A stretch of DNA of 64,000 nucleotides from Xestospongia bergquistia. Its lineage: Eukaryota > Porifera > Demospongiae > Haplosclerida > Petrosiidae. Positions 891-64,000 of this stretch are shown piece after piece. The notes beneath the pieces are model-generated. The model had not been told where the DNA came from and searched no databases. It saw nothing but the letters and a program-made list of their open reading frames with translations. Numbering within the stretch: position 1 is the stretch's first letter; each line of letters opens with the position of its first letter. The position numbers and the translations under genes are program-made. The stretch is from NCBI GenBank assembly GCA_963965975.1, contig OZ014412.1, positions 14,522,849 through 14,586,848 of the forward strand. The letters run 5' to 3'.

Positions 891-990
891 ATTAATTCAA
901 CTACTAGACACACCCTCGTAATAGAGTAGAGCACGTGCGCTAGTACTTGACAACCTAGAAGAAGGAAAGGAAATTTGGCTGTGACTGAGC

Positions 991-26109: not shown

Positions 26110-27046
26110 GAAAACAGATAAAGATGTGGAACAACTAAATCCAAAAATGTATCACAGATTGTTTGACATACTGTGGATGAGTTGATGAGTCAGATATAGT
26201 CTAATAATATAATAACTTACTACCTTCTTTAACACATTGTGAAAATGTTTTGCTTACTTAAATCCAATGGTGGCAAAAATTTGCTAAGAGTGACAACACA
26301 AAAAACAGGATATATTTACAGATAGCATCAGGATTATACTTCAGAGTATCTTAATGATAAGCTAAGCTAGAACAGGTGTCATATACTTTAAAATTGATGT
26401 AGTTTACGATTAAATAAATATAACATACTGAAAAAACTTATTATTTATTTATTTCACTCAAATTAACTAATAACCAGTACAAAATTAAGTAGGAAAATGT
26501 TAAATTGCTTAAGAGCAATGTTTTAATTGATTGTCACAGTTACTATCTAGATTATTAAAGAATGCATGGGATTAGGTCCAATGTGTATCTACAGAAGAAA
26601 AAGAAAATAATTATATTATTTGTTAATCAGTGGTCTTAATAATGTTTGGTGTCATGAGCATTGTGACATGAAAAAAATATTTCATACTGAATTTGGTCAT
26701 TGAGATGTATGAATAAAGAGAGTATGCACAATGTACTGTACTGACAATTAGATTATCATTCTTTATAGTTTTTATAATTATGAACTTTTATTTATGTATT
26801 ATGCATTTTAAATTATCATTATTTCATTTTCATACTAAAGTTTCTAAATATACCTTTACATATGTAGTTGTAGCAGCTATTATGAAGTACTGCTTGGAGG
26901 ATCATCTAAAAATATAATAATTGTAATAATATGATAGAAGTTATGATAAATATAGTATATACTACAACAAGCTATTTGTTTTAACTGATTAGCTTAATTG
27001 AGCATCAATATTATACTATCATTTATGTATTACTGCTGTAAGTATT
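26110..27046. other. gene-free stretch, probable 3' flank of the ankyrin-Roc-death gene
   Basis: No coding exon was recognised. It lies downstream (minus sense) of the death-domain exon and should hold its 3' UTR and polyadenylation site. Several TTTATT strings (AATAAA on the minus strand) occur, but AT richness makes none diagnostic. Confidence 0.4.
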
Positions 27047-27336
27047 TCAAAACAGACCTGACTTTATGCCAACAAATTTGTACATTTCATTAGCAACTGA
27101 TTTCTTTTGTAGAGGACCCTCAATAACACTGATAATATTACCCCATGTTGCTGGAGTAGGCTCATTGTCCAACCAGCTCTGTAACATTTTTGACATTTTC
27201 ACCTCATCGGTGAAATTAGAGTAACACAGCCCATCAATAGTGTTAGAATCAACTCCAAGTAAGCCTCCCATCTCTTGCCATTTTGCTGTCACAGAAGAAA
27301 GCATTCTTAACAGAACATATTTCTCTGGTTTGCTAA
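27047..27336 (-). CDS. terminal exon: death domain
   Basis: The exon begins after TTTATAG and reads SKPEKYVLLRML, AKWQEMGGLLGVDSNTIDGL, a Lys/Met-rich helix, MLQSWLDNEPTPATWGNII and a final helix to GIKSGLF-stop. The pattern W-x2-(L/M)G..LG(V/I)....I, then ML..WL......TW..L, is the classic six-helix death fold (residues about 2-85). It would mediate homotypic assembly. It splices in phase from 27,784 (split Gly/Val codon). A GGTCTG string near the end could be a weak donor, but the in-frame TGA is a simple end. Confidence 0.88.
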
Positions 27337-30300
27337 CTATAAATATAAAGATATTGTAATTGTAATTAAAATAGATGTATACATAAATTGATGACAAAGT
27401 GGTGTTAAATACAACATTTAATAATAAGTAGTTATATATCAAATGCTACATGTAATCTGTGATTAAGTAAGCTATTGATTGTCATCATTAAATTGCATGG
27501 TGACAAGAGAGAAAGGTTCTTTTTAAAGATTCAGATTGACACATAAAATATTAAAGGATTGATAAGCATTCTAGTTAATAGCTTCATCAAATATTATTTC
27601 TCAATTTTGTCAGTGGAGTTGTGCACAGATCTCCAGTCAAAGCAATCAACATTATTTCATAAAGACATTGTATATAACTATAAAAGAATTCAAGTTGAAA
27701 TAATGTTAAAGTGGTAGAGACATCTAATTTTTTTACAAAATACAATGCTAAAATAATATATATATATATAAAGATTAACTTACCTAAAGTAAATGGAACA
27801 CGAGTCATCATTTCAGAATTTGAATTTGAAGAAGATCCTTTATTATCTACATTAAATAAGTCATTAATAATTATTTTTAAAATAATATTGTCCCAGTTGT
27901 CTATATTGTTATCTTGATAGAATAGATATAATTTGAAAACACTGTTCATACCATGTGTATCCAGAATAGGAGGGACTTGAACTAATTGGATTTGACAAGC
28001 TGATGTCTGATCTATAATTAAAATAACAAATAAGATATAAATGTTGAAAACAGCATACCTTTGTATCTAGTAAACCAATGTCCCTCTTTCTCTGTATGAA
28101 GTTGTATTGGCTCTAATTCTGTCATTAGTGTGCATTGAACATATTTAGAGTGACTTAACTTTGCTAGATGTGGTCGTAATTTTAAATCTGTCATGTGATC
28201 AGGATGTCTACACAACAGACTAACTGTAAACTTGAGAGCAGAAGGATCATATGACAGGGGATCAGCACAGGATGATACAGCTTCATCCAGTGTATGGCAT
28301 ATGATACTACAATTATTGATAGGAATTCCAGTAAAGTAGACCTCAATCCAAGAAAGAGAATCAACCAACAAAATTGACCCTCCTAATTCATCAGACACCA
28401 ATTTCACTCCATAGCGTAGTTGATTTGAGAATTTTGGTGATGCAACATCTAATCTGAAGGTTGGAGGAGTCTTCCTATTTAGTAAAGCTACTACAGTAGC
28501 AGGGAACACACCCTATAACAACAATAATTGTAGAGGTATGAGTAATATTTATGATATAACTTACCTGAGGCACAACTTTGTTTTCAAATTGAAGAACCAC
28601 TGGCTGACATGTTTTCTTAAAACGCTCCTTTTCTTCCTCTGTAATATGAGTACTAGGAAGAACTGCTGGTATAAAATACTGCTGTGTTAATGAAGTATGC
28701 GTAGTTTCTGTTAGATTATTTAAAGGACTAATGATACAAAGATGTGCCATTAACTCAAGGAAGTTATCCTTGGTGAACAAACCCTCAACAAACTCGACAT
28801 TCTGCAAAGCATCAAGCAATTTACTTTCAAAAGTACCTTTTTCTCGAAGCTGTATATTCCAGCCTTGATATGGAGCACAATCTTTGAAGATATGATATTT
28901 TGCAGGATCAATAAACGAAGCTCGAATGATGCAAGAGACCAAATTGACCAAGTACTGTGGATTAGTGAATATAATGTTATCAAGTACGTCAGGAAAATAG
29001 AGAACTAAAGACAAGGAGTTGAGGTATTTAATACAAAGGATTGTATCAGAAGCTTTCATTTTCAACTCTTGTCCAATCCCTATACATCTGTGAAGAGAAA
29101 CCATGCCATGATCCACTTCCTTTGCCACTTCTTTCAGACGTATTTCAAAGACATACCATCGAATTGGTATTTCTATTTCAGCAGCAACATTTTCGTAGCT
29201 AGTGATACGTTTGCGAATATCTTTTGATATTTCTTCTCGATTCCACCAGCATTTGTTGTCAACAGGAAAAATCAACTCATTTTCTGATTCATTATAAAAA
29301 ATAAAGTGATCACGAAAATCTTTCAAGGCACTTATCAGCTGAGAATTTTTTTCATGCAATGGCTCTAGTTCCTTGAACAGAGTAGTGAATCTAGTGATTC
29401 CATATGTGCGATCATAATTTGTACCAACAATACAGAAGAGAGGCTTAAAATCAATTTTGTTTAGACCTTTGGCAACAGTGTGCTTGCCTGATGCTATAGA
29501 ACGGACAAAGTATTCTATTAGCTGAAGGTTGGTCATCTGAAGCAAACTAGGCTGATGTACAATTTGACCATTGACGGAGTATAGAAACTTAGGCTTATCA
29601 CTGAGAAACTCGTTCAATTTTGTGACAATAACATTGAGGCAATTTCCACGAAGAAAAGCCCGTGATACATCAGCAAATTGAGGCTGACCTCCGCTATCAA
29701 GGACATGTATCCATGTTGATGCATGCAGCTCTTTTGACCTTTTTCCTTTTGCTAAAACATCAAGTATTTGGTCAGAGTAATAAGGAGCATCTGAATCAAT
29801 AATAGAATTGGGATCTAAATTAGTGGCACCAGAGGCAATTTTGTGGGTCAGAGGCTCAAGAGAAGCAATATCTTGTGGATCAGTACGTTCGTCTTCTATA
29901 AATGATGTGGGTACATCACCACATTTTTCAATACTGGAAGTGATACTAGGAATAGACTCTTTATCAATTTCTTCAGATTCAAAAAAATTAGGAAACACTT
30001 CCATTACTCTCTTCAATAATTCTATCCCCTCCATTCTCTCCCAAATACTTCCATGCTTCTCTCCAACTATACGCTCAATTGCACGGATAGGTCTACTGGC
30101 AATAGCTGTGCTGTTGTGATGCTTTGGAGCTGGCCAATTGAAAAGCAAATGTAGAAAAGACGTTTTCCCTACACCAGGAGGACCCATTAGCACCAACTTT
30201 ATAATTTCTACAATAACAGACCCTTCTCTTAAAGCTTGCGCAAATGATTTAGCTGATTCTGTATAAGAGAAATATAGATCAACAATAAATAATGAAAATG

Positions 30301-33300
30301 AAGTAATGTCTTTAATACAAAACTAATTTGATTAAATTATCTTTTCATTAAACAGATTACATCATCTTATGCAACATGTAATTAGTATAAATGTGCTATT
30401 ATAATAGCACATTTATACTAATTAAATATTTCATAACAATGTGTCTATTACATAAAAGAATGGATATTGATTATTTAAGAAGACATGCAAACAATAAAAT
30501 TAATAAAATTATTAATTTTATTAGGAAAAAATATTATTTTGCAATACTATTATGAATCCACAACAATTTTATGATAACAGAATTGAAGCAAATATAGATA
30601 GCTTAAACAATGTTCTTTCCTATACACAATGATAACACTAAAGTCATATTTGCTGTCAAGGATATCTTTTACAATGAAGTGGTGCTACAAACAAACTCGA
30701 TTTAACTAACCTGAATACAAGCATTTTCTAATGGCTTGAGTCGACACGTTAGCAAGATCAGCAGGTAATTTTCCTTGCTAAAAGCAAGCACTGAATAATT
30801 ATATATATAATATATGACTTACCTTGTCTGGTATATTAAAGTCAGCTCCAAATTGATGTAATAACTTTACTACTTCCATTTCCTTGTTCATAAATGCATG
30901 ATGAAGTGGAGTTCGTCTTTGCTATAAATATAAATATGTATCTGTTAAAACACCTTTTTGTCAAATGAGATGCTATGAAATTAATCTTAGAAACAAATTT
31001 AGTGATTATCTGAAAAAGATTTAGATTCTGTTATTTAATGTCAAACACTTGCATATACAACTAGTTTAATATTTTGCTATATGAAGTTTTATACTATTTT
31101 TTTAGAGGTCAACTAGTCATACCAACGTTTCTATGCTGGATATGAAACTGCTGTGTGTGTAATGTAATTTTGTGGGAAGTGACACAAACTGGAAAGATTA
31201 TGTACATGTATCATATCAAAAGTGGTTGATACATTTCATCAGTATATTAATCATACAGAGAAATAAGAAAAGCTCAACTCAGTAACCTTGGACTTTCTTA
31301 TAATTAGTCTCATCTGGTGAAATATCTAACAAGTAGGTATAGACAAATACAAACACTAATAAAATGCTAATATGACTCATTTTAAGAGGAACAGACTTTG
31401 CTTGGTGTTAAAAAAATGTGTGATATCAACAACATGTATAATTGTAAGTTCATCATAACAATGTACTGTTTATTCTTATTAAATAATTTTAAATACTGAT
31501 GTAATGAATTACTTGAAAATAGAAGCAAAGAGAATCTATACACAAAGCTAGAAGATTCTATTTTAGGCTAATAGTTAAATTAGTTGGACTGCTAACATAT
31601 TTTGCCTCCTTAAATGTGTATGAATATACTGTAATCATTAAGAATATAATTATTGTTTTGATAAATTAGACCTATTCTAATAAAATTATTGTCTCAAATA
31701 ATTTGACAAAATGAACATAACTTAAACTAACACTGATTTCCCATAATTGTTGACCACACCCTCATGAATAATAATATTTTAGAATACATCACTGTATTAA
31801 TTTTAGAAAGCTAATAACGAAGACATTCACCAATGTATATAGACAGTTACCTTATTAAAAAGATTTAGATTCTGTTATTTAATGTCAAACACTTGCATAT
31901 ACAACTAGTTTAATATTTTGCTATATGAAGTTTTATACTATTTTTTTAGAGGTCAACTAGTCATACCAACGTTTCTATGCTGGATATGAAACTGCTGTGT
32001 GTGTAATGTAATGTCAATCAAGAGTCTGTATCTCCTGAAAAGCTGGAACTAAGAGACAAGGAAACTAAGCTATTTATTTGCCTTCTTACGTCAGCTATTG
32101 AAAATGAAGAAGGTGTCTCATACACTTGGCCAATATACACCCTCATGAACAAAATTTTTTTAGAATACATAACTGTATTGATTTTAGAAAGCTAACAATG
32201 AAGACATTCACCAATGTATATAGACAGTTACCTTATTGAGAGCATCAAGGGTTGCTCCACTTTGTATAAGTAGTTGAACCATTTCAGTATGTCCTTGAGA
32301 TGCAACAGTATGTAATGGTGTATTCTTATCCTGGATAATGAAAAGTGTTAAAATTGTACAAAGTGTTAAGATAATTTAATTTATAGTACAATGACAAATC
32401 AAGTACACTACACTAGTTTCAACAGAAACTTTATTGCAAAAGCAACAGCTGGTACCATTGATGAAAGAGAGTTATTAGTGTAATCATTAAATTTTAGTTG
32501 ATCACACATTATTAGAGAATTGACTTTGGATCTAGCATGTTATTGCAAGTTCAGTATAAAACAACATATAGGTATATTCATATTAACAAAGAAGACATAG
32601 TTGGACCTTAGAGAAGCATTTTTAAGAACAAGCAACATATCACACCAGTTCTTTGATTTGCTCATTGATACGACTGCATGTATATAGTTTGTTTTTTTAA
32701 TTATGTAGGATCTCACATATAAATACAGACACTTTACATAATATTTTAAATACAGTATTTTGTAAGAGATTTTTACTTTACAAAAATCATTTCCCCATTT
32801 CTTAAACTATCAAACATAATTATTACAATCTTTGGATTTACAACATAGACAAGTTTATCATACATGTTTGCACTCTGTGAAAATTAAAATGATTGATATA
32901 ACCACAATATGGTTATACAGGTAGCATACATGTAAACCAAACAACATATTGTTTTCATTCCTAGTGGATTCTAAACAGCCATATATGCTAGTATAATAGG
33001 AATGAAACAGACTGATATTTACTTTTAGTTTGCAATATATGTGACTAGATATGCAAAAAGGGACCACTCGAGTCATTTCTGTCATAATGCTGAATTGTTT
33101 GATACCTTGGATAAATGCATGCGTTGCTAAAGAAACAACGGAAATACAGTGGCTACTACCAAAAATTAATTTTGAGAAAAGTGGAATTTTATTTTCCACC
33201 CCCGCATACCGTACACTAGAACGCGAATGCTTCTACGTGTTAATCTAAAAAGAACTTTGGCTTTATAGACGATTCAAAATGAGGTACAATTCTCTTTGTC

Positions 33301-36300
33301 AGGTACAATTCTCTTTGTTTTTTGGTTTAACTCAAATTCCCCAAAATATTGAAATCATCACTTTTTCTGTCCATACTGAGATTTTTTTTTTTTGACAGAA
33401 GTGGTCCCTTTTCGCAAATTAGGTCACATATAATTTGCTACATAGATACATGTCATCTGTATAACCATATATGGTTAAATAAACCACTCAATTTTTACAT
33501 GTGGTAAGGATTACAGTCAAGTCAGTTGCAAGAGTGTTGTTAAAAAAGTGTTGTGTACACATACAAAAGAATATGTAAGTCTGACCTACGCCAGACCCTC
33601 TATTCATGTATAAACATTAACTAATAATATAATTACAACAAGTATATAATGTAATAGATTTCAGTTATAATTGGGAGAATACTCCAGTTTATTAGTATGT
33701 TTTAACAATGTCTATTAATTGGTCATAGTTGATATATAATTTGTGATATTAACAGGTTATAGATTATAAGTATATTTTAGATTATAGCAGTATAAGGTAA
33801 TTATTGTGATAACAATGTAATAAAAGATAATGTAGGGAATATGGCAAATTGATATAATGCTGACTTTTATATCCTACAATTCACATCATTACAATTATCC
33901 AACATAATAATTATGATGATCTATACTATGTGTTATGATTGTAATAGCCACTGTATATGAATTCAACATTGATGATATTTGTGATATTTGTTATTAAAAT
34001 TATCTATAACAAACATATCTTATGATAGAGCTTGATTAGTGGGAATGGTATCCAAAAATATATTGACAACATGTAATTCATACTATTTTTGCACACATAG
34101 TGTACAACACTAGTCTTCAGGAAAGTATATCATTTATTACATATTAAAAATTTTATGTAAGCAAATTACTGAAATGTGTAAATGTATACTGTTACAAGTG
34201 GTATGACATAATATAAATTAAATTAGCACAATAATTATCTGCTTGTGACAATACTATGTGAACTATTTTGCAAGCAATGTTTGTTGTTGATTTTGCTGAT
34301 TAGTAGGAGGAGGAATAAGTTATCATCACAACAGAGATGTCAGTATAGCTATATAAAATGTTAGGATTAATACAAGTAGTAGATTGTAAAGATTCACTCA
34401 TATGTCATGTTGTAAAAAGTGACTAACAATCAGAAGAATTTATTATACAAGTCTAATTATTCACTCAATGTAAATGTCAGAGCATGTTTCTACAAGTAAT
34501 TAACAGTATCCTAGTATATTCACTATGAATCTCAAATAATTTAACTTATATCATGGAATAAACATAGTGATGACACTAACGTTACAAAACAGGTAAATTT
34601 AGTTGTATAGATGACGATTTTAACCTGTTGATAATATGTTATTGCATAGCTAATTTTTCTCATCAACAATATGTTAAAGAACGTCTCTTGAGAAGAAGAG
34701 AAGGAATATACTTAACAGAAGAGGTTGTGTAGGTCCAATTGGATTTCTGAAGCAAGAGAATAAACTTTGATGTGTTTAAGGTCAGTAGACCAAGTAACAG
34801 TCTCAGCACTACAGGATTAATAATAACTCTTAATACTAAAATATTTAGTAAGTCAATACTTTGTAGAAATGTTTGAACTTTGAAGTTTAAGAATTCGGCT
34901 CTAGTGTAACAAGCTCTAGCATTGCCTTTAGCCATAATAGCAGTCTGTTATTCTATATTTTAGTGTATACTACTGTTCTATATTTTAGTAATTGTTGATA
35001 AACGGACTGAAGTAGTTGCTGTTTCTGTTTGCTATTGCTTACAAACAATATTACTCAATAAGTTATGTTTTCAAGACTTGATACTAGATCAAAGGTAATT
35101 TCCATATGAACAGCAAGTACGGGTTTCAATCTAATTACTTGTAAACTGATTAACATATACAAATGTGAGCAACAGATGAGTTAATGCATATCTAAAAAGA
35201 TTGAATCTTAAAGCAGATACTATGTATAATCCAAAGACTGGTATTTGTCTCATTATGTGATTGTGACAAAGAGCAACTTTAAGACATGTAAAAACAAATT
35301 TGAAGATAATGCCATTGTCTTATGTTATTATTCCAATGTTCAAGAATTATTGTCAATGAAATAAAATGGAATGACTTATAATTAAAAGGATATTTTTGCT
35401 GTTTACAATAAATTTTTGCTTTTTATGATTGAGCAGCTAATTGTGAAAGACAGAAATAGGAAACCTCTCAAAAATTTTATAATAATGAACTATATATAAT
35501 TATTGCTTCTAATCTGCTGTCCATGATGATTATAACTGTGTGTGAAACTGATATTGATTGAACCACCAAAGCCAACAGCCAAAGCCCAGAAAAGAAAAAA
35601 TGTTTTGATGAATAAGGAAAAGCTACAAATCTGAAGAAAAGTAGCTATTACTATTACTTATTTAGTAGCTATTAATTATTACTTCATTTTGTTCATTATC
35701 ACAATAGAAGGGTGTTTATCATACAAATTGTATTCTACTTATTAAAGATAGTTGTTTCAATGATTCATTTCAATCATCTGAACAAATTCACTATCTGTAC
35801 ACTTATAAAGAATATCATAGACAAACATTTTGGATAACTGATGATGTACTGTACATAAATGGAGTCTTTAAAGTAATAAGATTGACAAATAATAAGATCA
35901 TATGTGACCAAAATACAAAAATGGTATGTAACACAAATAAACTTCAAGTAAATGCTTGCACATAAATGGTTTCTTTGTGGCCACCTTCAACACAAACTCA
36001 ATAAATTTAATATATGAGAAGTTTCATCATTGGTCTTATGGCTACCAAATTCAAATGATTTCTTGTTCAAGATGAACATATAGCAGTTGCTTCAATGCAA
36101 TCACTTGTTTGAAATTAGTTTGCACATTAGGTAATATTTTTCCTATTTTTGGTCATATAAGTCTAAGGTGTATGTTTCATAATAATGCATGAAGTGTTCA
36201 TTCATTTAATACAAGAAGTTTGGCATATAGAATGATACTACCATACATAATAGCTGGTTGTGCAATGCTATGTTAATGATTTTGCAAAAGATGTATTCAA

Positions 36301-39300
36301 TAACTTATTGTAGTTAATTGCTATTAATACATTACCAAATGAATGATATGAACTGGAGTTTGAAGAAAATATTTGAATATTTGAAGATTAAAGTGTTTGT
36401 CCTATTATGCAACATATCTTTTATCTATAGGTTTACAATAATTATAGTCTTATAATATAATACATGACAGTAATTAAGTCATTTGTTAAATACATGCTCT
36501 ATAGAACTTATATTATTAATTAACAAGTTATAACTAGTATATATCATTATTATACAACAGTTGCAAAATAATTAAACATGATATTAACATAATAACATTA
36601 AGTGTACACAATATCAGATATGTAATGGAAAAGAAATATCAAAATTAAAATTATCAACATCCATTAGAGGACCACTCCATTTTAATATATTTCAACCTTA
36701 AGATTCAGGTGAAAAAAGAAAACAGGAATTTTCTGATGAAACAACCAGTGTATTATGCTTCAATTTCTGTTGTCTCAATAGTAAATTACTTTAGGCCATC
36801 AACCACTATGGTATGTTTGTTTGAATTTGTGACAGTGGTCCTCTAAGGGATATATATCAGGTAACCTATACTATCCAATAATGAGAGCATTGACATCATT
36901 CTATTGCATTGATTCAATTGCTAAATGAGTTTACTGCACATATTAACATATTAACATTACATAATAAATAACTTGTAATGTTTAAATTTTATGCAACAAA
37001 GACTAGAAAGTAAATATCGAAACATATTCAAGTGTATAATATCTGACTTGTCTTCACAAGCTAGGACACTTCCAACATACTACTAAGCTATAGGATCAGT
37101 GATCTGTACTGGAAGGATAATACACAAATAAACCGCAATTTATAGTCTTTGACAAAAAGAAACGATCTAACACCCAGATGCAATAACTATAGCTATTAAT
37201 CCGAAAATTATTAAGTAAGTAACTAACGATTAATAAACATTAATAAAAATGGCGACGAAGCAGACGCTGTCACGTTGGAGAGTTCCACAGACCTTCCTTT
37301 GAAAGACACGTCGATAGATCTTGTGTGCTTTATCGTTGGAAAAAGGCTCTCCTCGTGTCACCATTTGAAAGAGAAAGTTGGAGCATACGAGAAGGCAAAA
37401 TTAGTTCAATTGAGTCACAGTGACTCAAAGACACTTCAGGCTGTCAGTAAAAGAATTCCACTTAAGGCTGCAATAGCTAATCAAGACTTAGTTTACTACT
37501 ACATCAATCTTTCCTGTGTGTTTGGTAGTAAAAACTATCAGGATAAAGGAAAGAGACCTAATCAGAGGTCAGTACTGTCATGTTTGTGTAGTTTGTATAG
37601 TTAGGTCTAAACTTCAAAATGTTTTTATAGTATTATTAAGCAAGAGTGTAAGGTGATGATCAAACTATCTCTAAGTGATGACGGGCAGCATTTGGTTGTC
37701 ACTGATGTTAATGAAAATTACACCCATGATGTTAGCAAAGTAAGAAGCAGTCATTACTGATTATTACTATGATAACTTGGTTAAATAGGAAATATATGAT
37801 CACCTTCCTCGTCAAGGGATGTTTGACTGTGAAACCAGGAAGGAAGCAGAAAGTTTTTAAAGATGAAAGTTAACAAGAAGTAGCTTCAACAACATCTTAG
37901 TGTCACAGTGTTGTTACACTGAAAGACATTAGCAACATACAGACTGGACTAGTAAGTAAAGAGGATGGAAATAATCTAGACGCTTTTGTTAAGAAGTTAA
38001 GAGATATGTCAGATATATTAATATCATTATTCACATACTTTTATATGTGTGTGAATTAATACTTTTTAGGTTTGTCAATTGAAGTATTCACTAATGCTAG
38101 CAACACTTTTAGGGCCTTTTTGTTTAAAGACAGAATTATGAAGTCTGTCTAAGCAACTTAAGCTAAAAAGTAGTGTAAAAATTATCTTTGAGTCAGAAAA
38201 TGAATGCAAAGTTGCATCTTTGGCAGGAATTCTACAAGCCACAATTACCAGTTGTCGGTGTGCCTTTTGGACTTCCACACAGTTACCCTGTTGTCACCTT
38301 TTTGCAGTGAGGGAAAGATTAATTAGGTGATGATTAATTCACAAACAACTACATTATTACATGTATTAATAACAATATTACATACAAATAATACAGTCAT
38401 GTATAGTATTGACAACATGTTCAATATAATAGAGATACTTTCTGTATTACTGAATCAATCAGATCATTTGCTGTAGAAAACAAGGTTAATGTATTTTTTG
38501 TTGGCTCCATATGCATTGGAGGTTAAGGTTTGTATTTTATTTTATTCTTCAATTTCATTTGTGGCACACAACTATAAATTATAATAAAGCAAGTTGACTT
38601 AGAAATATGTAAACATGTGTTACAAAACAATTACTATAATGTACCAGAAGAAAGAATGCTTGCAAAGATTTAGAGCAATGTAGTTTTAATTAAGGAGGTA
38701 GTGCTTTATCATAATAGCAAAGTCAATATTCATTACACTTGTTTTTGCTAAAGTTTGTATTAAATGCTTCAAAGTAAATACTACAATCATATTGGTAGCA
38801 CAACTATTAAATATATGGCCAGGCTACTTCACAACTAACTCCATGTGAGTGAAAATATAGCTACTATTGTTATCTACTATATATATTATCAAGGACAAAT
38901 TATATCTATGAATAAAAAAAATGTTTAACTTGAAAAGTACCAGTATATGAGCATTCTGCTCAACATGAAAGTTATTATTAGCTGGCTCCCTTTAAGTATT
39001 GTATGTCACCTTAAAAAAATAGGGTTTATATCACTAAAATATTGTAATTCAAGTTATGGTATTTTACACTACATTCAAAGTAATAACATAATTCCTAAGA
39101 TATATACACTAGACTTTAAGAAGCTCTTTCTTGGTTTTGATTTGTACTCAGATTACCAGAAACCATATATGGAATGTTAACTATCATATTTTTGGCTACA
39201 TATACATAAAATAATTATACTTATCATAATACATGAGAAGAAACAAATCAGAGACCAAAGCAAGCATTACTAGAATAGCAAACAAACAAAAAGCATTAAA

Positions 39301-42300
39301 TTTCCTTTTTCAGCAGTGGTGATAGGAGAAATACCTTTATATATGATTCTGATAACATCAACAAAACTCTATAGTAGATCAAAAGGTTGATATGATGATA
39401 ATTACAATACACGCCAGTCATTAAAATGAGGATATTTTGATTTTGTATGAACTAACATTATAACAATATTGATGAATTGCTTCATAACAGTAAGGTGCTA
39501 GCTATAGAAATTATGATGATAACTAATTAATTTTTAAACATGTCTAAGATACAATATTACTTGATGTAGTCGCCATTAGATTCCCTTGGCTCTTGTGATG
39601 GTATTCCCAATATGATTTGAAAGTATGGATGAACATTTTTCAATCCAATAGAATATCATACTTGTATGATGAGGAAAGGGTGATTTTTTTTCAGACGTTT
39701 TAAAGCTATAATTCAGCCAGAGTTTTATGCTACTTAATTAGTTTATTTGACAGTCCTTGTTAACCTCGCTGTCTGTCAGTGTGTGTGTGTGTGTATGTAT
39801 GTGTCTGTTACCAGGGCAAATAGCTTGAACAGCTTTAACTCGGCAAATACAGCACTTGTAGCCACCAAACTCTAGTGGACCGTAGCAAAACTTCTGCACT
39901 TCTTAAGAATACTGCCAAAAGGAGCATCAAACGAACGAAAAGCTTTAAAAGTCTGAAAAACCTTTGAAAAAAAGCACAGCTTTCAGTGAAGACTCGATAG
40001 TTCAATAAAAACCTTCTGCATACAGCTTATGACATTTTCCAACTTTTTAAAGTGAAAATTTTTGCAAAAATACTTTTGAAAGTTATGACTGTTTTACTAA
40101 CTTTTGGCAGTTATCTTTGTCAATACATTTAGCACGAACTAAAAATACTATCATCATAGCTGTCATTGGAGAATCACTAACTTTTACTAAGAAGATAGAA
40201 AGTATTGGACGTTTTGTCATTTAGAATGCAAAGTACCCAGTAAAGGCAAAGGTTTTTTCCCGTTGATTGAAGAAAAATGCTGAGTCATCAGCAATAGTCT
40301 TGCACATCATGTGGATTACGTCACTTGAGGAGGATAAAAAGAATAAAGGAAGTCTCTGGATAAGACCACAGCGAGGTTAAGCACTTTAGTGCATTTCATT
40401 TAAGTATGTATCTCAAACTATATAGTATTGTAATATTCATAGGAAAAGTAAATATTTAATTATATTTTAAAGTCATTTCATACCCTTTCCTAAGATCTTT
40501 CCTGTAAGTATGGGTTGTACAATGTACAAAAAGTCATATATCAACTACTGCATAAATGGACTGTCTAAAGTAGTAACTTTGACAAGAGCATATTAATATG
40601 TCTTAGTTATGTGCTTCACAGTTCAACATGTAATGTACATAAAAATGTCATGGAGCACACAAAGTATCTATCTGGTGTGGCATTAACTAATAGTAAGAGA
40701 TGTACTTAGAATATATAATGTTAAATCTAATAAAAATGAAATAATTACCATGAGCTGCAGTATAAAAGGTCACTTTTTGTAATCACTAACAATTTGATAA
40801 TTCTCTTATAGAATTATAATGACAATGACTAATTAATACTAAGGTTATTATTGTAAAGTTAGCCATGTTGTGCTATAATATCTAATCTCTTTTAAGTTAA
40901 TGATGATTACTTTTCATGCTAACTTATAGGCTAATTGTCATAACCTTACAATGTATGTGTCATAAATAGGATGTGGACTTTCAAATGATATCATTCAGTC
41001 TGGAATATTTCTTTAGCAGATTTTCAGAGTTAATTCAATTTTCACAGCTAACTTTACAGATTATGTAAAGAGCAAGTGAGGAATGTTTTTGTTAGAACAG
41101 GGATAAAAACAAACTGTTAATGACTTATTGCTAATTGTGGAACAACTCATGAAAAGTAGAATGCCATGAAAGCACCTAGCATATTACTAGCATTCATCAG
41201 TTGATTAAAGAAATTAATAATTAGAGTTTGACATCACTGCACAGGTTGCATGGTTCCAGCTGACGTATGTATCATACCAAATATCATGGTCACTGATTTT
41301 GACTGGTCCTCTGCAAATATTACATGGCCTCTTCATAACCTGACTGCAACAACCACTCATCATACTCAAAACATGTCCTTTTGACCAATACACAGTGATA
41401 AAGGAATATAAGCTTGAAGGCCAAAACCAGGTAAACGAACTGGACCATCTTGATGAGGAGGTAGCTTTCAAATGCCTTACTGCCAAAACAGGCCCTGGAT
41501 TGTCAGCTATATCCAGAGCAAATATGAACAACAAGAAACATAAATGACCAGATAAAAAAAGAGAGACCAAAACATTATTAGACAACAAATATAAGCAATA
41601 AGTCCAAGAACAAATAGTTACTTCAGCCTAAAAAGATGCTACCATTTTGATTATCTACATTCATAAAAGTAATCCTTATTGAATAGGTACCACTTTAGAA
41701 GGATTTGCATAGTCATAATAATAGTGACAATAATTTTGTTACAACAAGAGGGCTATAAAAAAATCAAGATTTATCATCACACACTAACACATGACTGTTT
41801 TGCAACTATAACTGCATGTCTTGTTTAAAATATAGATAAAGGTCTAGGACTAATTTTAGTATTAACTAAAATCAAGAAAAAATTGCCTTCTCTGTCGTTA
41901 TTAAACACTACTTAATAAGAAGTTATAACAATGTAACAATGACTAGGTGTCATCTTTGTTATACACACAAGAGTATTATTATTTTATATACTAGTATGAC
42001 ACTTGTAAAGAAGAGGTCCTACAACAAGATTTTATTTACACGATAATGCTACATGTTATGTATGAAGTAAATTTATATAACACTAACTTCATCAACAGAA
42101 TCTAGGTTAGCTTCGTTGTTAACCAATAGTGTAGCAACTTCAATCTTTCCATTACTTGCAGCAAAATGCAAAGGAGTTCTCTTGTTCTAAAAGATATAGA
42201 CAACAATACAAAGTAACACATGGAAATAGACTGTACTGGTACACTATGACAACATGTTTACTATTACTAATGCATCACAGAATAACTGTTAATTACTGTA

Positions 42301-45300
42301 TTGTGGGTGTAGTATGGTACAAGTTCTATACAACCAGCATACTTATATAATACATTTTATGCACTATGACTGTATGATAAAGTTCATGTTAACATAACAT
42401 GGCAGAAAGGAGAGGATATGTATGTAGTAGAGAAAATGTAAATTCGTATAAAATCAATTATAATGTCCTGTTATAAAGATTTAAAAAAAAATAAATACAT
42501 TTTTCATGTTATTATGGTATAAGAAAAACTTAAAAGACATTTTGCACAATATAATTCTGTTTTACAATTATATATTTGTTATTGATATGATAACAATATT
42601 CGGGAATGTACAGGATTTATAAGAACAAGCAATCACTGAGTGACATAAGAATGTTAAATAACACACAATATAACATCTAGACAAAGTATTATTAAGGAAA
42701 CAATTTTGTAATTGATATCTTATTATTCATTGTAATTAATTGTCATTCATATGGTTATGATTGACCAGAACAGTAGTTTCATACTTTATAATAATTCTTT
42801 GAAATAATTAACAATCAGACTTATATCTATCATACAAAACATACTTTATGCTGTCAAAATAAATCTGATGGTCTAATCTGTAGATGTCATGAGTGTAGAT
42901 AAAACAAAGGATCATTAAACTTTATTAGAACTAGACAAAAAAGAAATGGACAACTTAGTGCTAGGTTTGTAGGCATATTAGTGTTGACTACTCTATAGAT
43001 AGTAATGACCCTATTACTCACACATGAGGATGAACCTCTGGACCTTTTAGTATAAATCATTGCTTTTACAGGCTACTTCCTTGACATAAAATGTAACAAT
43101 AAAATGCCATAGATATTGTCATTATTTGAGACTCTCTCCTTTACTTATAATAGGATATTTTACTGACCCTTAAAATGGCTACAATGAAGAAGTAATTGTT
43201 CCCACAGGGGGTATCTAAGAAGTTTACAATTCTACTGGCTAGATATATCTGAGTCAACTGTCTTCTAATAGCATTTGCAATGGCTACATTGAATCTTCTT
43301 CAAGAAACATCAGTTCAAAATTTAATAGAGACCAGTAAATTAACAGGTCACAACTTATCATACTGGTAAAAGAAGTATATTTTAGGCATTGTACACTTCT
43401 GTTACCTATGACTTGTTGTCATGATGTAGAAAGGGTGATTTAATTTGAAGTATTTTAACCAATAAGTCAGCCAGAGTTTAGTACTACCTAGTTGGTCTTT
43501 TTGGAAGTCCTTGCTCAAGTGTGTATCTCAAACTAGCAATTAACATGTATAGGAGAAAGCAGATATTTCAATTTTTTCCCATGGGTACTTCATACACTTT
43601 ACTACCATTTTTGGTATGTATGGGTTCTGGCATGTACAAAAAGTCATAATATCTATGGCTAGATTCCTCACATAATATAAATTCAGACATAAATACCGCA
43701 TAAATGGACTGTCTCAAGTAGTAACTTTGACAAGTTATAAGAGCATATTAATATGTCTTAGGTGTGTGTTTCACACTGCAACATGTAATGTACATTGATT
43801 AGACACAGTATAAAAGTTTAACGTTACAAAAAATAGGACTAAAAAAGTAATGGAACACAAAAACATCTGGTTGTGGCAATAGCTCTTTGTATATATACAT
43901 AATTATTGTTAATTCTTACAAAAATGTAATAATTACTAACAATGACCTGCTGTGTAAAGATCACGTTAAATGTCATATTGTAAGGTTATTGTAATCATTA
44001 AGAAATCTGAGTATTTCCTTATACAAACTCACTATGTTTTGTCAATATAAAATGACAGGGAAAAATTCATCAAAGTAATAAACAGCTTTACGATGTATTC
44101 ACTTTATTGCTACTGATAGGGTTAAACCATTTAACTTATACAATAGAATAAACATTATGAAAATACTGACTTTAGTCAGTACTAAGGTTATAGTAGATGT
44201 AGCCATGCTGTTTTACAATAGTACCGATATCTATGCCTTTGAATGTTAAAATTAATTAATTATATTTTAGCTTATAGGCTAACTAACATCACCAGAGATG
44301 CAATGAATATGTGATAAATCACACTGTAAACAAATTGTGCAATGGTTTTATTGAAACATTCTGTAGCAAATATGTCTAGCCTCACTATTAGTGTTGAAGC
44401 TTAAACAAAAGAGGGAGAGGTGTCCTTGTAGTCATTTTACTTCTATAGATTAGGGAGAGTCCTAGATTACCATACATTGGTAGAATTATTATAATGATTA
44501 GTATATGAGAGTATCTGATGAAGATATAATTATTGTAGTGCAGTGATATTGAGGTAATCATGTTATACATAAGAAATATATCACATCAATGATGTTGTAG
44601 AGAAGCAATTGCATAATAGATACTCTCATAATAGTGATGTAAAGTACATACCTTGTTGTAATGGTAACATACTATATAAAACACCTCTTATTTGTCAGAA
44701 TACTTCTGTTTGTTAATATGTTCTAACTATGCTTATAAATTATTCATAGTTGATATATAATATTAACTTGCGATATTAACAGGTTATAGTATATAAACAC
44801 ATTTTAAATTATATCTCTATGATCATTATGCCCTTAGAGGACCACGCCTATTAATTAACATAAACCACAGGAATTAAAGCAAGTAAAAAATGGTTGTTTA
44901 TTGAGGAAGAAGACAAGTATATATACGCTTGAATTTCACTCTTCTCAAGTAGAAGAGTTGCTTTAGGCTGTCTACCAGAACGATGTGTTTGTTGTTCTGA
45001 CCTATTAGACCATTACTTTGGATACTTGAACATGCCTGCTGTCCATAGCAACGTGTAAAGGTTAGTAGTTTTGTACGTTCTTTTACTTATATAATGAAAT
45101 GAATATGTGATAAATGAAGAACTATGATTGATGAGTATCTGTTAGGTGTGATATTTTCTAAAACACTCGTCTGGTCACAACGCTGGATTCTCTGGACAAG
45201 TCTGACAGACAAATAATGTTAGGTGGTGTTCTTCACTTTTATCACTACAGACAACGCAATCTCTTCTCTTTGTTCTCTTATCCAAGTAATGAACATCCTT

Positions 45301-48300
45301 TGGATTCTTGGTAGCAGTAGCAGAGACTGATGGTGTGACAGAAAGTGATACTTCTCTCTCTTCAAGTAATGGTTCAACAAGACATTGAATAAAGATAAGA
45401 CATTCTGTGTGTGTTACCTTTGTTAGTGTCTTGATATAATTATAATATATACATTCACCACAACAATCACTTCTAACATCCAAAAGAATACTTTTTTCCA
45501 CTATTTTATGGGCTTGTATAAAAGAGTAATATGCCATTAACTGGTCAAGCTTGTCTCCAAGCATATAATAATTGTACTCATGCATGTCAAGTAGTTTCTC
45601 TTTTGTAGAGTCTGTTAACCTTATATTGATAGAGGATATTAAACCATTATTGTACATATTATCATTATAATAATTACATAGAGTTACCATTGTCATTTTA
45701 CCTGGGTTGTATTTCTATCATCTTGTTATTGTATTTTGTTGAACGCATTAGAATTGTTCTCTTATCTTGCCATGCTAAAGCCATCATATTACCACATATG
45801 TAGCTTTCAGTTGTACTCTTTTGTATTTTTTATTTTCTTTTGATTTCTACAAGGCAATCCTCGTTTGTTTGATAAAACAGTACCTAATTCCCATTTGTTC
45901 CGATGCATCAGGTAGAAGAGGACTAGTGTAAAATCGATCAGTATAAAGATCATTGCCTTTGTCCCTGAGATGATATGTCAAGGTTGTAACAAATTTGACT
46001 GTATGTGATGCTTCAGGATTGTCAATTAGGTTAGTGTCCTTTCTGTAGTATAAATGTAAGTTGTGCATGTAACCTGTTTTACTTTCGGACAGAATGTTAT
46101 ATCCTTTTAGTCCCGATGGGTTCAGTTTTCCTTTCAAATACTGATAAAATGATACTCTTTCCTTGAATGAAATGACAGATTCATCTACAGCAATTTGTCT
46201 GTCTGGATTATAGTTTGTGGTAACTTAAATAAACCTATGATGTAATGTTTATATAAATGTTCTGGAACTGCACTATATATTGTCATGTAATTTCAGTTTT
46301 GTTCAGTCTACAGTTGTTGAGTTATTGTTCTTTTAAATATATATGTTGTATTGGTAAGCTCGGTCACTAGTAGAATTACAACATATTTGGCAATTGGAGG
46401 TAAAAGAGATGGCAGCACTTATCAGTGGACTATTGGAACCGTTTGACCCATCAAAATACATACAATGTTTTGAACTATTCATAAAGGCCAATGACATCCC
46501 AGAGGAGAGGAAGAAGTCTGTCTTTCTCCCAGCCATTGGCTACAACTTGTACGAAGTTCTGGCAAACATTTTCGAGAAACTGGAGCAAGAGACTCTCAAG
46601 ACACTTGAAGCTGAACTAGAGAAGCATTTCAACTCCAAGTCTTCGGTTATAGCAGAGCAGTACAAATTTGGTTGTTGACACCAGAAAGAGTCAGAAAGTA
46701 TAGCAGATTTTGTTGTGAACTTACGTAAGTTGGTAACACGCTGCAACTTTAAGAAGGCATCGTTAGATGAAACTCTTCATGACAAATTCGTGTGTGGTCA
46801 ACAGCACAAATATATCAGAAGTCATCTTCTTACAGAGGAAGATAATCTTACCTTCGATTGATCAGTCAAGATAGCTACAGGATTAGAAGGTGCCAAGAAG
46901 CATGCACACTTAATGCAGCAAGAAACTAAGAAAGAAGCAGTCCATTGCACTACAAGATGACACAATACATTCAACCCAAGGTCGTCCACCATTGTATGTT
47001 TTCATTATGGAGGTCCGCATGCAGCGTGGGCGTGCCAGTTCATCAAAGAAAAATGCCACAATTGCGGCAAGACTGGTCACATCGCTAAGGTGTGTCGGAG
47101 CCCTACTGCAAAGTGTCAGAAGTCTAAAGGAAGACCAGCAAAGGGCCTGGACTCTGTAAACAAGGAGGAGTCATCACCTCTGGAAGAACTCACTCCAGAA
47201 GAATCTAATAATTTATTTATGATTTGTTCTTTTTCCTCTAGGTCTGATCCAATCAAGCTAGCCGTGGAAGTAAACGGTCACAAGTTACACATGGAGTTGG
47301 ACACAGGTGCTTCAGTCTCCGTCATTAGTGAAGACACCTTCAATTCAGGGCTGTCCTCCTCAGTTCAGATCCGCCCTAGTAATGCATCTCTCACTTCGTA
47401 TTCAGGGCACTCATTAGAAGTGCTAGGAAGTGCAAACGTCAAGGTTAAATAACAGACACAAACAGTCACACTTTCAATTTTTCCAATAAGCATGAGAAAG
47501 GTCTAAACTAGACCTTTCTCATGCTTATCAACAAATTGTACTAGGAGAGGATTCCAAAAAGTTTACTATCATTAACACTCAGAAGGGTTTATTTCAGTTC
47601 GAACGACTTCCTTTTGGTATCTCTTCCGCCCCTGCATTTTTCAACGAACAATTGAGAGTTTGTTGCAAGGGTTACCAGGGGTGGTTGCATATATTGATAA
47701 CATTTTAGTAACTGGAAAAAGCCAACAGGAGCACCTTGAGAACCTGACAAGAGTACTGAATTGGTTAGAAGAGGCTGGAGTAACATTGAAGAGACATAAA
47801 TGTACATTCGCTGCACCGTCAGTTGAATACCTAGGTCATGTTATCGATCAAGAGGGTTTGCATCCATCAGAGGAGAAAGTCAGAGCTATTAAACAAGCCC
47901 CACGTCCTCGAAATGTGACAGAATTAAAGTCATTTTTATGTTTGCTCAATTATTACTCTAAATTCTTGCCTCACTTATCTACTCTTATATCTCCACTGTA
48001 TCATTTACTTAGGAATGATGGAAACTGGTCCTGCAAGAAGTTGCAAGAAGATGCATTTGATAAAGCCAAGCAATTGCTTCAATCATCCACACTCCTCATG
48101 CATTATAATTGTCAGAAGGAGATCATACTTTCGTGAGATGCTTCACAGTATGGTTTAGGAGAAGCTTTAGCTCATAAGATGGATGATGGATCAGAGAAAC
48201 CAATTGCATTCATTTCTAGAACTCTCTCACCAGCTGAGAAGAAGTACTCGCAATTAGAAAAAGAAGGCCTAGCAATTATTTTTGCTGTGAAGAAACTACA

Positions 48301-51300
48301 CCAATACTTATCAGGAAGAAAGTTCAAACCCGTCCGATACCAGTGATGGCTGCATTGAGGACTCAATGTTGGTCACTACTCCTCAGTTCTTATGAATATG
48401 AGATTGAATATCGACCAGGATGCAAAGTAGCAAATGCTGATGCTCTCAGTAGACTCCCTTTACCAGAGACCACACCCAAGTCAAGTAAAGATGGATCGGT
48501 ACAACTCCTCATTTATCAACTCTCAGAAGTAATTGTCACTGCTAATCAAATAAAGAATTGAACAGAAAAGGATCCAATCTTATCTCAAGTTCATTGTTTT
48601 GTATTACACGGATGGCCAAACATTGTTGACAATCAAGATCTCAAGCCATACTTTAAACGTCGAGATGAACTCAGCATTGTCAAAGGGTTTGTCTTGTGGG
48701 GATCACGAGTAATCATACCTCCACCTGGTCAGTAACTGGTGTTGAATCAACTACATGACATTCATCCTGGAGTCAGTCAAATGAAGAGCCTTAGTCCTTC
48801 ATATGTCTGGTGGCCAGATATAGACTGATATTGTGAAGAGTGTGAGAGGATGTAATATGTGTCAAATGAATAGACCTTCTCCTAGTAAAGCTCCTCTCCA
48901 CCCATGGGAGTATCCCTCTAGACCTTGGGCGTGGATACACATTGACCATGCTGGTCCCTTCATGGGCAAAATGTTTTTAGTGGTCATAGACACTCATTCC
49001 AAATGGATTGATGTTGAAATAGTGAACTCTACTTCTGCAATGATCACCATTATTAAAATTCGTTCATTATTTGCTACACACGGCATAACAGAACAGTTGG
49101 TATCAGACAACGGATTAGGTTTTTGAAGCGAGGAATTCAAGCAATTCACAACTCAGAATGGTATTAAGCACATATTCACATCACCTTACCATCCCTCCTC
49201 CAATGGACTTGCTGAAAGGGCAATTCAAACTTTCAAGAGTACAGTTGTTAAAATGGATGGTCCAATTGATATACGTTTATCTAGATTTTCACTTCAGTAT
49301 AGGGTAACAACCCAGACTACTACTGGACTTTCCCCGTCTTAACTCCTAATGGGGAGGAAGATAAGAACATGTTTAGATGCACTACATCCTGATATGTCAG
49401 AAGATGTCGATAAGAAACAGGAGAAACTCATCTCTGGCAAGGAACCTCGAAAGTTTAAACTGGATGATCTGTTGTTTGCAAAAAAATTTCATGGATCTAT
49501 GTGGATACCGGTGAAGGTAACTAAAATAACTGGACCTTTATCGTATGAAGTTACAACTGAAAGTGGCGTGACTTTACAACGTCATGTTGACCATCTTGGA
49601 AGATTTTCAGAAGAGTCACTAACTACATTATCAATTGGTCAATAATAGATACCACACCTAAAGGAAGACCTCAACCTAATCAGGTAGAAGTTTCAGAAGC
49701 TCAAGAAGATTGTGTGGAACCAACAGCACCTACTCGATCAACACCTGAAAATCCAACACCAGTAGTGCGTTCACTATTTAGAAGATCAAGTCAAAAACGA
49801 AAACCGCCTGAAACATTTGCTCCAAAAACTTAAAAAGGGGGAAAATGTGGTAACTTAAATAAACCTATGATGTAATGTTTATATAAATGTTCTGGGACTG
49901 CACTATATATTGTCATGTAAATTCAGTTTTGTTCAGTCTACAGTTGTTGAGTTATTGTTCTTTTAAATATATATGTTGTATTGGTAAGCTCGGTCACTAG
50001 TAGAATTACAACATAGTTACCTTGTATGATTGGTATTATAATATCAAAAAAGGCTCTGTTTTGCATTTTCCTTTTCAAATTACTTCTCAAAATGTAACAT
50101 CCCAAAAATCTGGAAGAAACGATTTCAAAAAAACACTATTCGGAAAAATGGAATGTTACAAACATTATGCTGACCACTAACATGAGGAATCAGTTATTAT
50201 CACAACAGAGATGCCAGTATAGTTATATAAAAATGTTAGGATTAATACAACCAATAGTTTGTAAAGATTTACTAATATATCATGTTGTAAGAAGTGGCTA
50301 ACAATCAGAAGAATCTAATATGCAAGTCTAATTATTCTCTCAATGTAAATTTCACATTATATATGTTATTAGCAGATATAAAATACAATTCATATGTTGT
50401 AGTAGTAGGTAGTAGTTGTATTTACATAAACAACCACATTTTTTCTTTCATTATGCATTTCTCGATTAGAAAATCAAGATGTTACAAAGTGCGACAGCCT
50501 AGAATATGAACATTTATGTCTGTAACTATTAAGCTGTATGTGTGTTAATCTTCAATTATTTATAATAAATTAAGGTACTACTTTTATCTATTGGAACCAA
50601 ATTAATATGTTCTGTGGATAACAAATCTGTAAAAATCCTTCTGATATTGAGCTGACTCAATGATCATTGCTAAACTTAAAATATAGAGATACACTGTGAT
50701 GTTTTTGAGAGATAAATCTCACCTATGATAAATATAGCTACATGAGAAGTTTTAAACTTAGATTTCTGTCGAAACAAACATTTTTTTGTCATGCGAGGTT
50801 TCGTGACAATGCTGAATTTTCGAAGTCACATTGGCCTTTCGACACACAGTATTTTAAACCTATGCTATTTTTGTGTACAAGGACAAAAAACTGCTAGCTA
50901 TTTTTCGTCCTACCATACAATTTTGTATCTGCACTTGTCACTATCTCTCCTGATAGAATAAAGTGTCCTTGCAACTCAAAAGAACTAATTTAATTCATTT
51001 TGACATAACTATGATACTCTCTTCAGAGATTCATACTTGTCAATAGTTAGATGAACAAAGTATGGATGAGAGAGATGATCTAATTAATGAAGCTTTTCTT
51101 TATGTGTATGTGAAGAAATATCCAGATGGAGCCAGAGAAACTAGTAAAAGAAATAGTTATCACATTATCTCAACCCACAATTAATTATCGTTATTTCATA
51201 CTGTAGGATGTTGTAGCCACTGTTGATAATGTAACTACACAAAGAAAAGCCTTGTTTGAGAATGAAAGAAAAAATAATAGAAATAGTACAGCAGGAACAT

Positions 51301-59090: not shown

Positions 59091-60435
59091 AAGGTGAAAG
59101 TAAACAAGAAGTTGGTTCAACAACATCTTAGTGTCACAGTGGGGAGGTTGTTACACTGAAAGTCATTAGCAACACACAGACTGGACTGGTAAGTAAAGAG
59201 GATGAAAATAATCTAGACGCTCTTGTTAAGAAGTTAAGAGATATGTCAGGTATATTAATATCATTATTCACATGTACATGTATGTGAATTAAATCTTTTT
59301 AGGTTTGTCAATTGAAGTATTCACTGATGCTAGCAACACTTTTACAGGCTTATTGTTTTAAGACAGTGTTATGAATTCTGTCTTTGATTTGAATCCTGAA
59401 GTAATTGTTGTTGATGCTACTTATAAACTGAACAATTTGAGAATGCCTTTGTATTTATTGATATACATTGATGGCAATGTCCAGGGTGAAATAGTGCTGA
59501 TGTTCTTGATGACGATGGAAACAGAAGAAGCCATAACCAAATGGTCCAAACCTTTAGGCGCACAAATCCCAAATGGGAATGTACTAAGGTTGTGATGAGT
59601 GATAAAGACTTCAAAGAAAGGACAGTTTTCAATAAAGAGTTTCCTAATGCTACATTACACATTTGATTGTTTCATGTCCTGAGAAGCTTCAGAAGAAAAG
59701 TAACAACAAACAAACTGAGTATTTTTCCAGGTGAAAGAGATCATGTCTTAGAAATTATTTCTAAGCTAGCGTGTTCAAAGTCAGAGTTGGAGTATGATGA
59801 GCACTACCAGGCTCTTCTGAAATCATGACTAAAAACTATGATAACATATTACAACACTAACTGGCACGGAATTCGCCAGCAGTGGGTTGCACATTACAAG
59901 GAAGTTTTTTTCACCTTGGAGAAAGAATCAACAATAGGCTGGAAAACATCAATGGTAAAATAAAAAGTGTCTGTTGTAGGTAAGACTTCAACAATGATGC
60001 ACGTGACATTCATGTTAATCATTATTATTAAATAGGAACAGTAGTTAGTCAAAGTTTTTTAATCAGTATTTTGCTGTACTAGCTACTCTGAGGAATGAGC
60101 ATGACCATGGAACTCTAATGGCTCTTGTTAAGTGAAATGTTATGTTACTGACCCTATTGAAGTGGAGTATGCATCGATTTTGACACCTTACACATTAAGG
60201 TATTATTCCTTAATATTGTTTTTTTCATATTATCATTATCACTATTATTGTAGATTTGTGTCTAAGCAACTTAACCTAAATGTAGTATTACTAGTATTAG
60301 TAGGATTATCTTTGAATCAGAAAATGAATGCAAAGTTGTATCTTTGGCAGGAATTCTACAAGCCACAATTACAGTGTGCCTTTTGGACTTTCGGACAGTT
60401 ACCCTGTCGTCACCTTTTTGCGGTGAGAGAAAGGG
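59091..60435 (+). mobile_element. MULE-like transposase gene, copy 2, catalytic and SWIM part
   Basis: The MULE reading resumes with VKVNKKLVQQHLSVT. After introns it reads LSIEVFTDASNTF near 59,307. The RNase-H-like core follows: NPEVIVVDATYKLNNLRMPL, YLLIYIDGNVQGEIVL and VVMSDKDFKERTVFNKEF, then LHICLFHVLRSFRRKV, an order like ZSWIM1/3 and MULE transposases (first Asp in VVDATYK, second in MSDKDF). Near 59,730 comes LEIISKLACSKSELEYDEHY. The SWIM finger QCAFWT then LPCRHLFAVRE ends at 60,430; it has lost its first Cys. Stops and frame changes are present (for example near 59,360 and 59,827), so it is dead. It supplies the core deleted from the 37-38 kb copy. Confidence 0.82.
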
Positions 60436-60475
60436 GCAAATTCCTTTTATTTATTTACTCCTTTAAATTACTGTA

Positions 60476-60935: not shown

Positions 60936-60949
60936 GGTTTGTCAAAGTA

Positions 60950-61225: not shown

Positions 61226-61229
61226 TACA

Positions 61230-63999: not shown

Positions 64000-64000
64000 T

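Follow-up and report, generated by a model that had tools for sequence, protein, structure and literature searches.

The minus strand of the window (our term for the whole 64,000-nucleotide stretch of sponge DNA analysed here) encodes the 3' part of one gene, as read from splice sites and frame, and this gene sits in a same-strand gene array on contig C2 of a 146-Mb genome. With a probability of roughly 0.68, we regard it as belonging to a tandem array of ankyrin-Roc-COR-death genes whose features resemble those of a rapidly evolving family of intracellular recognition receptors. Judged from sequence, the best reading of the family is that of predicted diversifying, NLR-like ankyrin-ROCO-death receptors.

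Exon structure of the gene

Ten exons, designated A to J, join in a single frame with AG/GT borders and consistent phase, giving 1047 codons before the stop (Table 1). Exons A, B, C and D are each exactly 99 nt long, flanked by AG/GT and in phase 0 at both ends. The borders, the frame and the Pfam Ank matches bear out the proposal of the first-pass annotation that each of these four exons encodes one repeat, and its description of the GTPase part as one open 1.69-kb exon with GPPGVGKTS and DSGGQPQF applies to exon F. The death-domain exon, which it had taken for the end of the gene, is followed by the 29-nt exon J, which carries the stop. A chance origin of the 99-nt pattern was ruled out by the Ank match of the joined protein (E value 4e-31) and by the same pattern in compact paralogs.

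Approximately 2.4 kb beyond window position 64000, at C2:14589287-14589189, there is another ankyrin exon of 99 nt and phase 0, termed U, the fifth of this kind, and the gene thus continues outside the window. An N-terminal kinase or other domain further upstream was considered and rejected for the stretches scanned: minus-strand Pfam scans of window positions 51500-61499 and of 20 kb beyond the window revealed no kinase domain, and in the latter stretch exon U and a hAT transposon were the only Pfam matches on this strand. The first coding exon was not found in the upstream stretches scanned.

Table 1 Features of the window gene and of its introns
Feature	Window position	Strand	Basis
Exon A, ankyrin, hypervariable type, 99 nt, phase 0-0	51785..51883	-	AG/GT, frame, Pfam Ank; homologs in same order in paralogous units; codons 1, 3, 8, 11, 12 hypervariable (n = 17 copies)
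Exon B, ankyrin, copy-number-variable type, 99 nt, phase 0-0	42088..42186	-	AG/GT, frame, Pfam Ank; 0-4 copies per unit
Exon C, ankyrin, 99 nt, phase 0-0	32232..32330	-	Homologs at same relative place in L010 and L012
Exon D, ankyrin, 99 nt, phase 0-0	30823..30921	-	Homologs in L010-L013
Exon E, end of ankyrin stack, 67 nt, phase 0 to 1	30711..30777	-	Splice sites, frame
Exon F, Roc GTPase and COR-A, single open exon, 1694 nt	28565..30258	-	Pfam below curated cut-offs; GPPGVGKTS, DSGGQPQF; at least 77 related places in genome; alignment of 30 members
Exon G, downstream of COR-A, without Pfam match	28059..28512	-	Splice frame; similar open frame 3' of Roc exon in C6 paralogs
Exon H, linker	27784..28011	-	Splice frame
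Exon I, death domain	27058..27336	-	Pfam Death 4e-4 alone; family profile
Exon J, last codons and stop, 29 nt	26877..26905	-	Splice frame
Remnant of duplicated A module, B-C intron	36369..38452	-	Self-alignment to 51683-53682 and 59088-60433
LTR-retrotransposon pieces (zinc knuckle, aspartyl protease, reverse transcriptase), A-B intron	46961..48136	+	Pfam on open frames

Domain content

The joined protein matched Pfam Ank strongly and the other expected domains below their curated cut-offs: COR-A with an E value of 8e-6 (26.2 bits, cut-off 35.3), Roc with 2e-4 (21.9 bits, cut-off 27) and Death with 0.02 (15.4 bits, cut-off 22.6). Searched separately, exon F gave Roc at 5e-5 (23.9 bits against the cut-off of 27, profile positions 1-35 only) and COR-A at 3.9e-6 (27.3 bits against 35.3, positions 1-140 of 143), and exon I gave Death at 20.8 bits against 22.6. 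Among the paralogs, at E ≤ 0.01, 19 of 21 homologs of the death exon matched Death; of 30 homologs of the Roc exon, 15 matched COR-A and 14 matched Roc, and 15 of these 30 sequences are without the N-terminal part bearing the P-loop. GPPGVGKTS and DSGGQPQF are presumably the P-loop and the DxxG motif of the Roc GTPase. Exon F has both ROCO motifs, and COR follows directly after Roc, at Pfam scores below the curated cut-offs.

A profile of the death-exon family searched against PDB had THO complex subunit 1 as its first match and also retrieved death domains, among them that of FADD. The Roc-COR profile retrieved nothing specific and no close match among PDB sequences, and no NACHT or NB-ARC match was obtained with Pfam in the joined ten-exon protein at E ≤ 10. 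The domain order is ankyrin, Roc, COR, death, with the last three below cut-off. Of the domain content that had been expected from HMM searches, the ankyrin part is strongly confirmed and the family matches agree with the remainder, which in the window gene itself stays under the curated thresholds. The prediction that the gene carries ankyrin, Roc, COR and death domains is thus supported.

The array on contig C2 and its paralogs

A translated genome search with exon F gave at least 77 distinct places (the best 77 of 491 candidates scored); in 71 of these the match contains no stop. Fifteen Roc-COR places lie on C2 between 13.28 and 14.95 Mb, all on the minus strand, and single-exon searches showed A-, B- and U-type exons interspersed among them. 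An A exon is present 11-56 kb upstream of Roc-COR in 15 of the 15 places, with 0-4 B exons between the two, and a U exon lies further out than A in 12 of the 15 units; one unit has two A exons. These counts refer to hand-chosen minus-strand C2 matches within the given limits, excluding exons on the plus strand, the Roc place at 13.05 Mb, which is broken, and lower-scoring B or U matches that coincide with another exon type; counting the U-like matches at 13372249 and 13533147 would lift U to 14 of 15. Three observations fit the scheme poorly: exon sets at 14.09-14.15 Mb (A and U, without B) and at 14.49-14.51 Mb (A, B and U) have no Roc-COR match near them and were assigned by position to a Roc place approximately 100 kb away, and a lone B exon lies at C2 14860279.

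The order common to the array units is the main evidence that the exons at 42.1 and 51.8 kb belong to the window gene. They recur in the same order and on the same strand in paralogous units, in agreement with their assignment to the gene in the first-pass annotation. The paralogous loci L010 and L012 have C, D and A in the window order and share many blocks of approximately 87-94% DNA identity with the window; exon B is absent from both (30 and 20 kb read).

The units at 13.602-13.650 and 13.906-13.950 Mb on C2 resemble copies offset by approximately 303.5 kb, and similar pairs exist on C9; the offset C2 segments may be a recent large duplication or an assembly twin. Such pairs are what one would expect if haplotype copies placed end to end imitated an array. 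As an explanation of the whole array this is hardly credible: the Roc-COR part of most C2 units is only 34-89% identical to that of the window, and the 17 A exons read all differ.

In distant compact paralogs, each 99-nt exon likewise encodes one repeat, with introns from approximately 46 bp upward; AG/GT-bounded 99-nt exons made up 8 of 9 ankyrin matches scoring above 8 in L022, 5 of 7 in L014 and 4 of 5 in L025. Since these paralogs keep the exon pattern with short introns, the scatter over approximately 10 kb is a trait of the C2 array and not of the gene type. The long introns of the array, which contain duplications and transposons, look secondary. Exon number differs among the paralogs, with one repeat per symmetric exon, as in ROCO receptors with shuffled repeat exons. 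In the C6 paralogs, the Roc-COR-death part was found and no ankyrin exon was detected in the 20 kb read.

A genome search with Pfam COR-A gave 146 places, at least 100 of them over the cut-off, and 7 are common to the set of at least 77 found with exon F; both numbers refer to places, not curated genes, and include fragments and assembly twins. These results point to a very large predicted ROCO repertoire in the genome. The COR-A places are often single open frames of approximately 700 codons in tight clusters (C10 1.40-1.70, C11 6.37-6.47 and C12 5.39-5.54 Mb). On C9, a single open frame of 4174 amino acids at approximately 5.99-6.00 Mb has many ankyrin matches, unlike the one-repeat exons, and a frame at 3186.4 kb (L053) is silicatein-like, with Ser-Tyr at the catalytic position, which hints that the genome is that of a demosponge.

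Hypervariability of exon A

All 17 A exons read are distinct at both the DNA and the protein level; they represent 17 of the 18 minus-strand A-type exons of the array, the copy at 13941055 being omitted as the offset twin of that at 13637438. The 5' flank of A (300 bp) is 97-99% identical to that of the window in 15 of 16 comparisons (two over 171 bp only), and in the same 15 the exon is 81-92% identical at the nucleotide level. In the sixteenth copy the exon is 87% and the 5' flank 88% identical, the latter with length differences. Pairwise diversity in the 17 exons was 0.44 at codons 1, 3, 8, 11 and 12, compared to 0.056 in the other 28 codons; in the 5' flank it was 0.021 (7 copies), and in the 3' flank 0.12 overall, with 0.03 and 0.05 within its two classes. 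Of the 15 sites in the five codons 13 were variable, compared to 12 of the remaining 84 exon sites, the codons for this Fisher test having been selected from the same 17 exons; in the flanks, 16 of 237 sites varied on the 5' side and 17 of 119 in the initial part of the 3' side. Outside the five codons, variability of the exon is slightly above that of the 5' flank (12/84 versus 16/237, p 0.03). The pN/pS ratio was 2.26 for the whole exon, 3.2 for the five codons and 1.17 for the remainder, and 0.28 in the Roc-COR exon of four close paralogs.

At the variable codons the third base is mostly kept while the first two change freely, and all four combinations occur in 17 of 36 informative site pairs. 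Both properties would be compatible with a dedicated mutagenic process acting at the A codons beyond selection, similar to a diversity-generating retroelement or a deaminase. We consider such a process very improbable. The adenine-rich codons adjoining the variable ones, AAT at codon 2 and AAA at codon 23, are invariant in 17 of 17 exons, unlike the result of adenine mutagenesis, and adenine-directed mutagenesis of A is accordingly disfavoured; constant third bases are also predicted by selection for amino-acid change at low neutral divergence. Selection for new binding faces would suffice to explain the pattern, with no special mutator needed.

The next most variable codon after these five is codon 33, and with a shift of two the variable codons correspond to positions 3, 5, 10, 13, 14 and the next repeat's position 2 of an engineered DARPin-type ankyrin library. 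These six outward-facing positions were randomised in that library (PMC3308923). The six most variable A codons are exactly these six positions, a coincidence with a probability of 9e-7 if all positions were equivalent. An extended version of the receptor reading would make the array a germline repertoire of DARPin-like binders for self/non-self or microbes, with dedicated codon diversification, alternative splicing of repeat exons and individual-specific receptor sets; we think this improbable.

Exons U, B, C and D

For exon U, 32 paired copies were compared using protein and flank identities and allowing one base change per amino-acid difference. In every one of the 25 copies with a flank identity of 92% or more, on both C2 and C3, the maximum possible exon identity was lower than that of the flank; the bound was indecisive for the seven copies with flanks of 80-82%. 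Two full-length U flanks on C3 (6485314 and 6498532) have no U-type exon match beside them. At C3 6.46-6.52 Mb we also observed a cluster of U-type exons with flanks 92-97% identical to the window-side U and with partial A flanks; neither an exon-F match (among the best 77 of 491 scored) nor a COR-A match was found nearby, and the cluster is possibly an ankyrin-only offshoot of the C2 array.

The B exons had no diversity excess (pN/pS 0.54; 8 unique sequences of 9). Their 5' flanks are 88-97% identical in the C2 array, and in one unit two copies of B show no difference in the 696 bp read. With three C and four D sequences, diversity could not be judged for these two types.

Surface positions vary in most ankyrin families. 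The data on A could therefore be ascribed to ordinary DAPK-like signalling genes in which surface positions are weakly constrained and introns are homogenised by gene conversion, an explanation in keeping with the lack of excess in B, with gene conversion that looks active, and with a neutral level that is uneven along the gene (synonymous 0.13 in exon F versus 0.02 in the A 5' flank). However, relaxed constraint by itself cannot raise diversity above the local neutral rate, whereas the five A codons are approximately 20 times as diverse as the 5' flank (0.44 versus 0.021) and many of the intervening codons do not vary at all, not even at the third base. We therefore regard the DAPK-like explanation as rather unlikely and prefer diversifying recognition receptors.

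Module exchange, remnants and mobile elements

A exons with 97-99% identical 5' flanks lie upstream of Roc-COR exons that are 34, 36, 43, 46, 48, 88 or 89% identical to that of the window. Since the A flanks stay alike where Roc-COR is this divergent, modules exchange between genes. In the seven copies compared, membership in either class of A 3' flank does not follow the Roc class. Divergence between L010 and L012 is 0.4% for exon F and 7% for exon H, as against 9% and 2%, respectively, between the window and L012. In the remnant of an A module in the B-C intron (A-flank match C2:14559217-14559352), the exon is gone save for approximately 10 nt of its 3' end. Turnover of repeats, suggested in the first-pass annotation, is thus seen in the 0-4 B copies, the second A in one unit and this remnant. 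Taken together, the copies point to duplication, loss and exchange of modules that would be continuing.

When the 5' A flank was used as a query, 44 of 48 matches lay within 600 bp of an A-type exon; of the other four, one is the window remnant and three are at C1:21.88 and C3:6.46 Mb. That 44 of 48 matches adjoin A-type exons led us to reject the A exon as genome-wide transposon cargo.

The LTR-retrotransposon pieces (Table 1) lie on the strand opposite to the gene. Pieces of piggyBac-type transposases were seen on the minus strand at window positions of approximately 46 kb and 54-55 kb, within or just upstream of introns, and also in L043; a hAT element lies beyond the window, further upstream. 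The C-D intron has an identical 156-bp direct repeat (31013-31168 and 31857-32012) adjoining a 92% copy of the 3' edge of exon C (31756-31856 and 32137-32237). Long open frames at window 897-1992 and L044 1468-2130 (C2 approximately 14.598-14.599 Mb) share peptide stretches; the frame at 897-1992 has no Pfam match, and the two are probably an unclassified repeat.

With retrotransposon and piggyBac pieces in introns of approximately 10 kb, a hAT element further upstream and remnants of a dead A module, one might take the distant exons for fossils, with expression confined to C, D and the Roc-COR-death part while A, B and U decay in transposon-rich DNA. This is quite improbable. All 17 A and all 9 B copies read have an intact frame and both splice sites, with no stop, although this intactness is partly a selection effect because the copies were found by protein search, which would miss decayed ones. 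Moreover, amino-acid change exceeds silent change in A; such an excess requires translation and thus speaks against fossil exons.

A possible mechanism and its significance

Since each repeat is one 99-nt phase-0 exon, gain, loss and exchange of exons preserve both frame and repeat register. Within the long introns, which are rich in repeats, gene conversion and unequal recombination may duplicate exon-plus-intron modules; both would also shift modules between different Roc-COR cores and keep the introns alike, an outcome visible in the copies compared. Diversifying selection would then replace binding-face residues of the A and U repeats, as suggested for A by divergence at codons 1, 3, 8, 11, 12 and 33 above that of the preceding intron and for U by the bound on exon identity. 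Going by the domain types, the variable ankyrin stack may bind a ligand, the Roc-COR GTPase may serve as a switch or dimeriser, and the death domain may pass the signal on. Recognised targets could be microbes or other sponges. The immune role proposed in the first-pass annotation would be one by analogy, now backed by divergence at known ankyrin binding positions that is higher in the exon than in the intron preceding it.

If true, an early-branching animal would possess the natural equivalent of a DARPin library, and ROCO GTPases would join the animal families that resemble diversified recognition receptors. The locus offers a concrete place for testing sponge allorecognition or microbe sensing.

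Comparison with known systems

The animal protein DAPK1 has the domain order ankyrin, Roc, COR, death, the same as in the window gene. In contrast to DAPK1, the sponge has many copies and not one, and no N-terminal kinase domain, as is typical of DAPK, was found in the upstream stretches scanned. DAPK1 is listed as a human ROCO protein in PMC11378527.

Demosponge NLR repertoires are described as large families of death-domain receptors based on NACHT and LRR (PMC12909245, available part). The family described here would likewise be a large receptor family with death domains but differs in its core and repeats; in the same part of that source, COR occurs only in a legend of domain names and Roc is absent. 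No report of a sponge ankyrin-ROCO family was found in a limited search of the open-licence literature, nor does the accessible portion of PMC8195603 contain one.

In fungal NLRs with highly conserved WD, ANK or TPR repeats, diversifying selection is described at a few positions of the binding face of the repeats (PMC4986451, PMC2873952). Diversification of the binding face, change of repeat number, exchange between loci and a link to cell death would be common to the fungal NLRs and the sponge family. The fungal proteins have a NOD core and amplify their repeats as one coding region (same sources), whereas the sponge family has a Roc-COR core and repeats that are separate exons, most of them kilobases apart.

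In the LRR-ROCO genes of brown algae (PMC11378527), each repeat is encoded by a 72-bp phase-2 exon, and exons are shuffled and alternatively spliced. They number 9-47 per species, described there as exceeding other organisms reported, compared to at least 77 subfamily places and 146 COR-A places in the sponge genome. COR was detected by profile in 18 of 111 Roc-containing proteins of brown algae, and LRR-ROC-COR is given as their sole architecture (same text). The two systems have in common Roc proteins whose repeats are each encoded by a symmetric exon, shuffling of exons and a putative role in immunity; the sponge differs in having ankyrin repeats, 99-nt phase-0 exons, a death domain and a same-strand array, and in that module exchange is visible at the DNA level. 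The sponge locus, with its ankyrin exons and predicted Roc-COR and death domains, thus appears to combine brown algal and fungal features in an animal.
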